Shown here: positions 48,383 to 52,967 of the stretch, piece after piece
Position numbering within the stretch: position 1 is the first letter of the stretch
Layout: the number at the start of each line of letters is the position of its first letter
DNA from: Rhizophagus irregularis
Lineage: Eukaryota; Glomeromycota; Glomeromycetes; Glomerales; Glomeraceae
Length of the DNA stretch: 64,000 nt
Direction: 5' to 3'
Assembly (NCBI RefSeq): GCF_026210795.1
Contig: NC_089456.1
Span: 1,428,501-1,492,500, forward strand
Translations under genes and position numbers: made by a program
Notes under the pieces: model-generated
The model's input: only the letters and a program-made list of their open reading frames with translations
What the model was told of the DNA's origin: nothing
Database searches by the model: none

Positions 48383-48595
48383 AGGACCCTGAAATATATA
48401 TATAGAGGTCAGATCCAGAAGTAGTCCAAAATACGCATTCTTTCAGGGCCGGAATTACGATAATTTCAGCCATTATCTAAATTAGGAAATATTATTTTGG
48501 CTGGGATTATCCATAAAAGGAATGATCTACATGATTTTTTTGACTCATTATACGCAAACTCTGACCTGACCCTTTTATGTATATTTCAGGGTCCT
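48383..48595. mobile_element. AGGACC MITE, 213 bp, 8-bp duplication GTAAAACC
   Basis: Ends AGGACCCTGAAATATA / TATATTTCAGGGTCCT with duplication GTAAAACC (48375-48382, 48596-48603). Subterminal AGGTCAGATC / CTGACCTGACCC. Belongs to the GAAATATA subgroup with 56473 and 57050. Confidence 0.9.
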
Positions 48596-48728
48596 GTAAA
48601 ACCTCATATAAACTTGATAACTAACTTTTATTTGGTAAATAACTAAATATTATATTTATAATCTTATAAGTATATAATTTGTTATAAAAAGTTTATAAAA
48701 TCATAAAAAATTTACAAAAATAAATTTA

Positions 48729-48753
48729 TCGCCGTTTTCGAATTACTGTGATC
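48729..48753 (+). repeat. Left TIR of the Tc1-like element
   Basis: 25 bp, identical in reverse complement to 52260-52284. TA immediately outside. Confidence 0.9.
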
Positions 48754-49037
48754 GGCAATTTTTTAATTTTAATAAAAAAAATTGATTTCCAGAATTTCAA
48801 AAAAAAATTGATCACGTTATACATATAAAATTGTGTAAATTTGATCTACGTAGTGTTAAGCCATTATTGTATCACATTCGTTGTATTTTTTTGCTATTCG
48901 CTTCGTGTTTTTACAAGTAACTTAGAGACCGATTTTAACTGATTCCTAATCGGCTCCAACCCTTCTATCCGATTTCAAAATATTTACAGACAAAAACCAT
49001 AATAAATATATTTTTTTTTTGCTAAAAGACCTCAAAC

Positions 49038-50126
49038 ATGCCTCAAGAATTTAGCGAAGATTTATGCTGGCGTATTATTTATCTTCACATTGATAGATTT
49101 TCTACTGCAGATATTGCTAATACATTATACGTGAGTAAGGGTTTTGTAAATAAGATAATAAGGAGATATAACCGTTGGGCATGTGTTAAAAATCCTTTCA
49201 AAGGTATTCCTGGTCGTAGAAAACTATTTAGTAGAGCAGATATGGCTGTACTTAGAAATCTTGTAGCAGAAAAAGCAGACTGGTATTTGGACGAATTAGT
49301 ATATGAAATGGAGTGTCTAACTGGAAAAAGAGCATCTATTGCAGCTCTTTGGCGTTCACTTCAATACATGGGAATTACTCGAAAAAAAGTAAGTAATTTA
49401 TTTATATTATGAATTTTTGAAATAAATATTTATTTTTTATTCAATACAGTTACATAAGGCAGCACTGGAAAGAAATGATATTATACGTGCACATTATTTA
49501 GGTGTTATTGGTGAACATTACACCCCAAACCAGTTGATTTTCCTTGATGAAAGTGCTAAAGATGAGAGGAGTCTATCAAGATTATATGGATATTCTCCTC
49601 GCAATATACGCGCACATAAAAAAGTTGTGTTTGTACGAGGAAAAAGATATACAATTTTACCTGCTCTTACATTAGAAGGATTTGTTGCTGTTGATATATT
49701 TGAAGGAGCATGTGATAGAAAAAGATTTGTTGATTTTGTTCTTGATCAAGTGGTAAATAATAATTATACAAGTTTATTTATTTATTTATTTTATATTCTA
49801 ATTGATAAATTTATCTTTAGGTACCAATAATGAACCCATATCCAGATAATAATAGTGTAATTATTATGGATAATGCAAAAATACACCATGACGATGAATT
49901 AATAGCACTATTAAGAGGATTAGGATGCCATGTTGTTTTTCTTCCACCATATTCACCTGATTTCAATCCTATCGAAACTGCATTTTCAACTATCAAATCA
50001 TGGATCAGGCGTAATCGTGATTTTATGGAAGCTTATAATGATCCTATACATGCATTATTAGTTGCATGTAGTCAAATAACGTCTCAAATGGCACAAGCAT
50101 TTTTTGAAGCATCAATTTATATTTGA
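49038..50126 (+). CDS. DD34E Tc1/IS630-type transposase (319 residues)
   Basis: Exons 49038-49388, 49450-49752 and 49821-50126, with introns of 61 and 68 bp (GTAAGT...CAG, GTAAAT...TAG), all in phase 0. The N-terminal helix-turn-helix lies at about residues 5-45 (FSTADIANTLYVSKGFVNKI). A second paired-like region follows to about 115, with PGRRK between. The catalytic triad is Asp150 (FLDES), Asp235 (IIMDNAKIHH) and Glu270 (SPDFNPIE), with 34 residues between the second Asp and the Glu. PPYSPDFNPIE is the hallmark of Tc1/IS630 transposases. It cuts and pastes the element at TA sites. It has no stop or frameshift. Its 3' end faces the partner gene with 128 bp between stops. Confidence 0.93.
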
Positions 50127-50254
50127 TAATCAATTTAGAATAAAAAAAAATAGAAATATAACCAATTTAGAATAATAAAATAAAAAACTGGAACAAGAAT
50201 TTATATTTGAAATATTATCTTTATTATATTATATGATAATCAAAATACATTAGG

Positions 50255-52025
50255 TCAATATTGTTGCGCTGCTTGTTTAATATTTTTTTGCCATCCAATT
50301 TTCACCACGCCTAACTTTTGCAATTGCTCATCTGTTAAATCTTTTATAGCATTAACTGTAATTTCTTCTTCAAGAAATGCATCTTCAAATTTAGCATATA
50401 TATTATTACAATTATATTTCAGGTCTAAGTTATTAAGAAACTCACCAATTGATGGTAATTTGCTTGATGAAGGTAATTCCAAATGAGTATTTGTCGGATT
50501 TTGATAAACTTGACTTGGTAATTGAATAAAAATAGGAGTAGGCGTATTGGATGTTTGACTATTTTGCATTTGCGTTGCAGAATTATTTTTATTGATAAAT
50601 ACACTTGATTTCATATCAAATACTGGATAAGATGGAGGAATATCATAGGTTGTTCCTTTGTTTATCTAAACAAAATTAATAATTAGTAGGTATCATTTTT
50701 CATTTGAATTTATAAAAAAGCATACTTTACATACAATTTCACGAGCCCAAAGTTGTAATCTAGAAGGATTAAGCTGCAAATGCCGACCATCTTGAATAAA
50801 ACATGGAGTAGAATGTAAATCACATTTATACATTTCAACCAAATCAGCAATGACTTCAGATCTTCTTTTCTCCTCTTTTGATAAATCATCTTCTCTTAGT
50901 GAACGAGATTTCTTTTTCTTTTTGGTTTGTATTTCAATTTCTTCAGAAGATGATCTAATATTATCATCAGAATGCTAAAAAATTATAAATGTTAAATATT
51001 TTTGCCTATTATCTCGCATTATACATAAAATACTTTACCTTTTTATGTTTCCTATTTTTTTTTTCTGTCACGTTATTCTTCACAATTACTACCACTATCA
51101 CTGACATTTTTTTCCCAGTTAATGTTACCTTTTGATATTCACTAATAAATTCCTGAAAATCCAATTTATCTTCAAGTGTATTTGATGGTCCACGTGCATT
51201 TACAGCTTTATACGAAATAGTATAACTGTATTTTGATTTTGTTTCTTTTTCTAGAATTTTTTTAGTTGCTAAATTTATTTTTTCTGTAAAATTTTTATAA
51301 CTAGCAGGCCGAATAGTTAGAGTTTTTGCTGTAGGGATTTTTATATTATTATTTTTTACAACTAATTGTATTTTTATTTCCTCAATAATATCAACTTCTT
51401 CATATTTTTTATTGTCATTATCACTTTCTTCATCATAATCTCCATTATCATCGTCTTCTTCATAGTTTTCATCATTAACATCACTATCTTTGTCATAATA
51501 ATCATCATCTTTATTATTAAAATCTTTATCATCGTCTCCTTCATCTTCTATTTCATTATCATTGTCTTTTTCGTTTTCTTTCTTATTATTATAACTTCCC
51601 ACTTTTCTTTTACTATTTTCTGTTGGCAAATCATCTATTGAAATGATTTCTTCATTGTTTATCTGAGCTTTCCTATTGCTTTTTTTGTTACTTTTTAGTT
51701 GAGATTTTTTATCACTAGTTTTTAATCGTTGAAGTTTACTATTACAAGCACTGCAAGTAGTATAGGAAAAGTTTTTTTCAAAATTATTATTGTAACCAAA
51801 TTTAGTATTTATATCTAGTAAAAAATTATTGAGTTTTGGAAAAATTTGGTTTGTAGTATAAGCACGTTGATATATTTGTTGTCCATGCAGTGGTTTTTTA
51901 ACTCTTGATATTTTATCTTTCTGACACTTGCACGGATTTTCTTGTGGAAGTTTGAAACAACGCAAACACTTTTGACATATATAACAAATACCGGGAAGGT
52001 AATTGCAAGTTAAATTTTCCGCCAT
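50255..52025 (-). CDS. Partner protein of the Tc1-like element: Cys-rich, acidic, SAM domain (545-548 residues)
   Basis: Exons, minus strand: 52025-51039, 50974-50735 (or to 50726), 50665-50255; all phase 0. The N-terminus (residues 7-40) holds closely spaced cysteines (CYICQKCLRCF, then CKC), with another pair at about 92-95 (CSAC), suggesting zinc binding. Residues about 125-215 are lysine-rich and then strongly acidic (Asp/Glu/Asn runs). About 215-310 is a folded-looking domain (KTLTIRPASYKNFTEKI...VTLTGKK). A basic patch KKKKKSRS follows. The last ~65 residues match a SAM domain (SIGEFLNNLDL...IKDLTDEQLQKLGVVKIGW). It is contained wholly within the TIRs, so it moves with the element. A DNA-binding or targeting cofactor role is inference. 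The second donor site is ambiguous. Confidence 0.8.
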
Positions 52026-52259
52026 TTAAATAACTCCAAACGCGAAAAATTACTTCAACTTCTTTTTCGCGTAAGTATTATATAATCTATTTACTAATTA
52101 CTATATTAAGTAAATGACCAGTTTTATAAAAAATTGACCAATAATTATTTAGAAAATTTTACAAGGAATATTTGCATGTGTTTTGGCTTATTTTTAGGTT
52201 GTTTTCGGTTATTTTCGGTGTTTTCAGTATTTTTTAATTATAAATGATCGACATCACCT

Positions 52260-52284
52260 GATCACAGTAATTCGAAAACGGCGA
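52260..52284 (-). repeat. Right TIR of the Tc1-like element
   Basis: Perfect inverted copy of 48729-48753, with TA at 52285-52286. Confidence 0.9.
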
Positions 52285-52967
52285 TAATAAGAAATTTTTA
52301 TTAGAAATAATTGAAAAAAATAGAAGAAATCGGAAAAATTAAATTAGATTTATATTTAGTAAAATCCTAAAAATATATAAAAAGGCTATATTTGAGTTTA
52401 CTTAAAAAAACTAAATTTTCATAAAAATCTTAACTTTTTTAAATAATATTGGCTTAAATTTTATTGTCTTTTTTTGATACTAATTGGCATTATTATAATT
52501 CTAGTGAAACTTTGAAAATTATTAAAAAAACTCAAATCTGAATTTGTATAAACTTTATAATTAATTTCTATTTTAAATATATAAAGTTATACATAGATTT
52601 TAGCTTCAAATTTTGCTATTTTTAAATTTAATAATTAGATTTAATAATCTTTTTTTTAAAATTTATCTTAATAAGATAAATATTTTGATATATAATTTAT
52701 CTTTTTAGATGTAATATTAACTAAAATATTGCATTTTAAAATTTTAGTTATACAGGATTTAGTAATCTTTTGGATCTTATTTTGATTCTAAAAAGTTGTT
52801 TATTTTAGGCCAAAATCTTGCTAGTTATTTATAATCTCTATATGTATTTTTTAGGATTCTTATTTAGTTACATAATTAAAAGAATTGCATTAAATTAAAA
52901 ATAGTATGGTGGTTATTACAGAATCCTGAACAATATTATTACGACTCATATTTGAAGATATATTATT

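Follow-up and report, generated by a model that had tools for sequence, protein, structure and literature searches.

A Tc1/mariner-type element of Rhizophagus irregularis in which a conserved SAM-domain gene accompanies the transposase gene

The window analysed here is a stretch of 64,000 nucleotides from Rhizophagus irregularis (G000:C28:1428501-1492500 in the genome as searched). Its positions 48729-52284 are a Tc1/mariner-type element of 3,556 bp, in which terminal inverted repeats (TIRs) enclose two genes: a DD34E transposase gene, and a convergent gene for a Cys-rich, acidic protein that ends in a SAM domain. A first, sequence-only reading described perfect 25-bp TIRs with a TA duplication, an open three-exon transposase gene, and an open, convergent three-exon SAM gene inside the TIRs. 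The sequence bears out each of these, and so, for the duplication, do unoccupied insertion sites; the exon boundaries of both genes are predictions from reading frame and GT..AG. The features are:

48727..48728, no strand: target-site duplication TA, left copy, in TTAA context (sequence; empty-site alignment)
48729..48753, plus strand: 5' TIR, 25 bp, perfect, TCGCCGTTTTCGAATTACTGTGATC (sequence comparison)
49038..50126, plus strand: DD34E transposase gene, three exons, 49038-49388, 49450-49752 and 49821-50126 (predicted splice, translation, Pfam, NCBIfam)
50255..52025, minus strand: putative partner gene with SAM domain, three exons, 52025-51039, 50974-50726 and 50665-50255 (predicted splice, Pfam)
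51690..52025, minus strand: N-terminal Cys-rich module, C-x2-C-x2-C-x2-C-x8-C-x-C and later C-x2-C (alignment of 17 members)
51390..51689, minus strand: acidic low-complexity linker, of varying length among family members (composition)
51039..51389, minus strand: conserved domain of unrecognised fold, with invariant Y, K, L, F and Y in 26 members (alignment)
50726..50974, minus strand: exon 2 module, a basic stretch and then C..H..C....H..L....W (alignment)
50258..50452, minus strand: C-terminal SAM domain, residues 484-548 (Pfam, PDB profile)
52260..52284, minus strand: 3' TIR, 25 bp, perfect, inverted copy of TCGCCGTTTTCGAATTACTGTGATC (sequence comparison)
52285..52286, no strand: target-site duplication TA, right copy (sequence; empty-site alignment)

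The predicted spliced transposase is an open frame of 319 residues. It matches Pfam DDE_3 (E 8.2e-28; 97.5 bits against a cut-off of 28.6) and, over most of its length, the NCBIfam IS630 model (139.8 bits, cut-off 100); the spacing from the second D to the E, counted by eye, is 34 residues. At the N-terminus, matches to HTH_23 (E 0.016) and the Sleeping Beauty helix-turn-helix (E 0.044) are both weaker than the cut-offs, and a PDB search with the transposase returned only SETMAR and Sleeping Beauty, at E 0.22 or above. By its DDE_3/DD34E transposase, TA duplication and TIRs, the element is a member of the IS630-Tc1-mariner superfamily.

The SAM gene, also as predicted, encodes 548 residues without an internal stop, and its stop codon lies about 130 bp from that of the transposase gene. 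Five positions in the Cys-rich N-terminus are invariant and six nearly so among the 17 aligned members, eight of them Cys; the module is probably zinc-binding, and Pfam and PDB searches with it gave no match of substance. Asp and Glu make up 37% of the linker in the window gene and 10-37% of the open linkers at other loci; where the linker reads open it spans 20-111 residues. The central conserved domain matched no PDB fold at E <= 0.001, and its model is of low confidence (predicted local distance difference test, pLDDT, 63); a beta-grasp or PB1-like fold, guessed from the pattern, was dropped on the same grounds. The exon 2 module has 50 matches in the genome: 40, by hand count, lie less than 6 kb from a transposase of the two-gene lineage, and the other 10 are SAM-gene remnants or solo copies. 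The C-terminal domain matches SAM_1 (residues 484-547; E 3.7e-7; 30.8 bits, cut-off 23), and a family profile of exon 3 finds SAM domains in the PDB (best E 9.5e-7), among them those of Caskin, CNK2, Shank, Bicaudal C and tankyrase. SAM domains are self-association modules. They also occur elsewhere in this genome, since only 14 of its 26 SAM_1 matches fall at two-gene elements or at a solo copy on contig C30. Scanning IMG/VR with exon 1 of the SAM gene gave no relative.

An in-frame test for the introns, with a search range that was probably too narrow, detected transposase intron 2 in 36/43 loci and intron 1 in 20/44, and SAM-gene intron 2 in 29/41 and intron 1 in 4/40; at SAM intron 1 it was negative even on the window gene.

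Copies were sought in the whole genome (146.7 Mb, 32 contigs); locus counts taken from match lists are lower bounds. The first 172 bp of the element occur at nine places, three of them identical, including the window copy. The transposase has 186 exon-wise matches, and those listed cluster (within 3 kb) into at least 63 loci. For the SAM gene, the queries were the window gene's three exons plus exon 1 from two diverged copies, and at least 79 loci have matches. In this superfamily the transposase is usually, though not universally, the only gene. Here, among the matches listed, a SAM-gene match lies within 6 kb at 54 of the 63 transposase loci, and at 53 of these 54, all but C1:7473834, it lies downstream in convergent orientation. 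The Pfam DDE_3 matches listed served as a control: they form 149 loci, 100 of them of other lineages, and among the matches listed no SAM-gene match comes within 6 kb of any of the 100. The other-lineage transposases, at 100 or more loci, include several multicopy families and many long open frames.

Profiles sharpen this picture. Besides the window, 48 loci were cut out (45 from the transposase list and three for SAM-gene matches alone), and iterative profiles were built for three transposase blocks and four SAM-gene blocks. Across the 49 loci, 46 have transposase blocks and 43 of these have at least one SAM-gene block; the figure is 42 of 43 for loci with all three transposase blocks. Three assignments (L019, L020 and L045) rest on single SAM blocks, with independent E-values of 1.0e-6, 5.4e-11 and 1.5e-4. 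SAM-gene hits and transposase are on opposite strands throughout, with one exception: a short hit in L037, a cut stretch that reaches into a neighbouring element of opposite orientation. With E up to 0.1, the four SAM profiles found nothing in seven control DDE_3 loci, three loci of miniature inverted-repeat transposable elements (MITEs), or the remaining 59 kb of the window; the transposase profiles do hit most control transposases, as expected. All 27 cut loci at which both TIRs were recognised contain both genes. Thus the sequence-only reading, which would have fallen had most copies lacked the SAM gene, holds on this point, by the pairwise and the profile counts alike.

Two arrangements among these copies are recorded for their own sake. 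Two loci of the lineage lie in opposite orientation within 4.5 kb at G000:C7:4011303-4015794. The diverged transposase locus L020 (G000:C21:1726300-1730500) sits inside a different perfect inverted repeat, CAGCAAAATTC..., of at least 40 bp, with its arms 3.5 kb apart.

The 27 loci are those where the cut stretch includes a convincing TIR match beyond the genes at each end; at the other cut loci one end or none was recognised, and the 3' end of L008 lies just past its cut. In all 27, the outer TIR TATCGCCGTTTTC, with few changes, encloses both genes, across transposase identities down to 47%. The genome contains the exact 14-mer TTATCGCCRTTTTC 241 times and the reversed pattern twice.

TA flanks all 27 elements on both sides, in a search that itself required TA; the real test of the duplication is therefore the empty sites. 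The window element sits in a dispersed repeat (window 48560-48728 and 52287-52430). A query made of its two joined flanks, lacking one base where they meet, finds matches that span the joint at 11 other places; eight of these were fetched, and all eight have a single TTAA there. A similar unoccupied paralogue of the L031 site has a single TA, but reads TTAG, not TTAA. The wider context is as regular: TTA precedes and TAA follows the element at 27/27 two-gene elements and 18/18 MITEs, against a background in which 13.9% of the 7,364 TA sites in the window are TTAA. The end searches required TA and left the outer T and A free. Among single-gene controls, 1/5 has the TTAA context. By these alignments the lineage inserts at TTAA and duplicates TA, and the strict context is a new observation beyond the sequence-only reading.

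Two other accounts of the context were considered. Duplication of TTAA, as in piggyBac, is rejected: only TA stands on both sides, the empty copies have a single TTAA, and the transposase is of the DDE_3 type. A TIR reaching into TTA without duplication is rejected as well, since unoccupied copies of the window target already contain TTAA, with the caveat that the L031 paralogue is mismatched at the fourth base.

The 18 MITEs (L058 and L062-L078; L057 is the same place as L078) are 340-394 bp long and have TIRs related to those of the lineage, mostly TTGCTGTTTTCTAATTACTGTGATC. These TIRs, together with the TTAA context in every case, suggest that they are likely mobilised in trans. Inverted pairs of the outer TIR about 100-190 bp apart are also numerous genome-wide (e.g., C1:4457921-4458097, C3:1847957-1848134 and C4:423747-423937), pointing to a second, shorter MITE family. 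One MITE copy, L049 (G000:C2:3353308-3357804), has about 4 kb inserted between its ends, with open reading frames on the minus strand. L060 (G000:C7:3905400-3909600) derives from the L031/L036 type; most of its transposase is gone, and SAM-gene exons and the 3' TIR are kept.

The full-length element itself appears to have moved recently. Over 3,556 bp the window copy is 99.94% identical to L002, which lies on another contig; L001 is 99.4% and L003 97.8% identical to the window copy. The flanks of these four copies share no homology beyond matches of 23-25 bp. In four other subfamilies, too, there are copies that are 98.4-99.4% identical and have both genes; their flanks differ, and the longest match between these is 49 bp at 73%. 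Near-identical copies between unrelated flanks show that the gene pair moves as a unit. The proposal of a recently active family is thereby upheld, and the element is, as read from these comparisons, a recently mobile member of an old two-gene IS630-Tc1-mariner lineage.

The age of the pairing is seen in the trees. Of the 49 loci, 13 were left out for coverage; the other 36 had enough of both proteins for maximum likelihood trees. The transposase and SAM-protein trees have 26 of 33 splits in common, whereas shuffled labels give a mean of 0.18 and a maximum of 3, and there is no conflict between the trees among splits with support of 95 or more. The distance matrices are correlated (Mantel r 0.91, reached in 0/2000 permutations). 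Identity in this set falls as low as 39% for the transposase and 21% for the SAM protein. The two genes are, by their trees, inherited together through deep divergence.

Selection was examined with pairwise codon models for 23 pairs, which share branches and are not independent. In 12 of them, with synonymous divergence (dS) of the SAM gene between 0.4 and 2.1, the ratio of nonsynonymous to synonymous rates (dN/dS, omega) of the SAM gene is 0.10-0.26, with twice the log-likelihood difference (2dlnL) at 29.5-152.9; for the transposase, in ten of these 12 pairs, omega is 0.06-0.25. Three saturated pairs (SAM dS 2.5-4.5) give 0.07-0.10. The remaining eight pairs, with omega 0.03-0.75, are mostly too similar to inform: L022-L040 is an exception among close pairs (omega 0.27, 2dlnL 14.8), and L031-L036 gives a non-significant 0.62. 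For the SAM gene in near-identical pairs, the likelihood ratio was negative in two and implausibly large for the window copy with L003; these were taken as optimiser failures. Under the codon models both genes are under purifying selection, the outcome that the sequence-only reading had made a test of its proposal.

Since the SAM gene occurs in nearly all copies, changes in step with the transposase, and is held by purifying selection, it must serve the element. The sequence-only reading had left three roles side by side: transposition cofactor, target selector, or captured host gene. Co-occurrence, trees and dN/dS reject the last. On balance, we lean towards the view that the SAM protein is a dedicated transposition partner. 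Contacts with DNA or the transposase would be made by the Cys-rich N-terminus and the C/H/C/H module of exon 2, and self-association by the SAM domain; the resulting oligomer could help the transposase to pair the ends or to hold the TTAA target. Cutting and pasting would be left to the DD34E transposase itself. That the partner has a part in the strict TTAA context is offered as a hypothesis.

Several observations weigh against a transposition partner. The transposase might choose TTAA by itself, and five elements make up the single-gene side of the comparison. The bacterial element ISY100, with a related transposase, needs no other protein for excision, according to one report (PMC2170065). 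The Cys-rich, central and exon 2 modules match no family of known function convincingly, and the fold models of the modules are of low confidence. Evolution is also faster in the SAM protein, at a median pairwise identity of 30% versus 55% for the transposase, as would be expected too of a regulator or anti-silencing factor. Finally, nine of the 63 listed transposase loci have no SAM-gene match by pairwise search. Among these, L019, L020, L045 and L046 gain a SAM-gene block by profile, L046 with a Pfam SAM_1 match alongside; L043 is a fragment; and C8:1970914 is outside the set of cut loci. L041 has no SAM-gene match, pairwise or by profile. L044 breaks off before the SAM gene, relative to L037. 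L059 (C29) was considered as a complete SAM-less locus and rejected: it matches L005 at 97.5% identity as far as the intergenic region, where it ends abruptly, and no 3' TIR was found in the cut stretch.

The strongest rival is that the SAM protein is an anti-silencing or expression regulator encoded by the element, binding its own DNA or chromatin and dispensable for the chemistry of transposition. There is a precedent in VANC of the Arabidopsis VANDAL transposons, described in two reports as a sequence-specific anti-silencing protein (PMC5735166, PMC10398659). The conservation and co-inheritance of the SAM gene fit such a role equally, and so does the faster evolution of its product. The linkers also contain a weak SUMO-interaction-like motif, in 13 of 20 as against a shuffled mean of 7.4 (reached in 3/1000 shuffles), a pattern that was chosen post hoc; two simpler patterns are not enriched. 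Yet the protein has no Pfam match to a known anti-silencing protein, and anti-silencing alone does not explain the strict TTAA context, though it does not conflict with it. A regulator of this kind is a tentative alternative, and the less probable one.

The partner reading has a stronger form, which is doubtful at present: an obligate two-protein Tc1/mariner system, in which the SAM/zinc protein would polymerise on the ends or the target DNA and impose the strict TTAA choice. If true, a separate subunit for target selection or synapsis has arisen in a superfamily regarded as working with a single protein.

It is very improbable that the SAM gene was captured from the host and is carried along as a passenger. 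In its favour, 25 of 79 SAM-gene loci, among the matches listed, lack a transposase within 6 kb; 17 of these 25 matches are under 400 bp. One of them is L014 on C30 (G000:C30:551539-553121), with its matched exons open, no transposase and no recognisable TIR. However, the DNA of L014 shares 81% identity with L004 and L005, and it derives from an element, since the homology begins in the element's intergenic part; similarity to L004 runs from there to shortly before the 3' TIR. It is either a remnant or a beginning of host use. Searches with the SAM-gene exons found no separate large host family, and the gene follows the transposase through families down to 39% transposase identity; the gene thus hardly resembles a passenger from a fixed host locus, the case named in the sequence-only reading as fatal to its proposal.

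The last alternative, two unrelated genes that happen to be adjacent or an artefact of assembly or annotation, is refuted by recurrence: the same pair recurs across the genome, enclosed by both TIRs in 27 loci on many contigs, and copies of the flanking repeat exist without the element.

Tc1/mariner elements are the textbook case of transposition with one protein, and genome engineering relies on them as such. A partner that selection has retained across deep divergence offers a natural experiment in target choice, synapsis, or escape from silencing. With near-identical open copies, MITEs as ready substrates, and a strict TTAA context, the question is directly testable in yeast, and the lineage could yield transposases with tighter target choice.

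Among known systems, PIF/Harbinger elements are the familiar two-gene transposons: they pair a Harbinger-type transposase with a Myb-like partner and make a 3-bp TWA duplication. The likeness lies in having a transposase with a second conserved protein. The transposase superfamily, the duplication and the partner all differ, and membership is rejected for the R. irregularis element: its transposase is DDE_3, its duplication is TA, and its SAM partner has no Myb match in Pfam. VANDAL elements, compared by description only, are also DNA transposons with a dedicated non-transposase gene. Their transposase is of the MULE type, and their extra protein, VANC, is a sequence-specific anti-silencing protein.

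Closer relatives come from within the superfamily. Transposon curation in R. irregularis names Tc1-Mariner, with no SAM gene mentioned in the part of the paper available (PMC11075540), and the literature searched, which covered few subscription papers, reports no SAM-domain gene in a Tc1/mariner element. The ciliate elements TBE and Tec, again compared by description only, combine a Tc1/mariner DD34E transposase with further open reading frames, three in all, and in TBE these include a zinc-finger protein; no SAM domain is mentioned in the accessible text (PMC7325037). Mariners carrying Fanzor1, an endonuclease or a methyltransferase have extra genes inside TA-flanked TIRs as well. They are described as related single-copy elements with differing 3' portions (PMC3627910), whereas here one partner is kept across dozens of loci. 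The statement in the sequence-only reading that Tc1/mariner elements normally carry only a transposase therefore fits the single-gene elements of this genome, and falls short as a rule, since such multi-gene elements are known.

The single-gene elements in question are among the control DDE_3 loci L050-L056. A TA-flanked TIR pair lies 1.3 kb apart in five of the seven, and none was found at L051 and L056. The five TIRs begin CAGT, CACT or CAGA, and apart from antisense overlap the transposase is the only gene-sized frame; in L055 it is split over two frames. Six control transposases score 97-122 bits against the IS630 model, one just under the cut-off of 100. Like single-gene IS630-Tc1-mariner elements generally (e.g., ISY100), these 1.3-kb elements share with the two-gene element a DDE_3, IS630-type transposase, TIRs and flanking TA. 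The element studied here differs in its length of about 3.5 kb, its introns, its second conserved gene, its TIR (TCGCCGTTTTC), and its strict TTAA context. Beside these control loci, the second gene, introns, length and TIR type set the two-gene lineage apart within its own genome.

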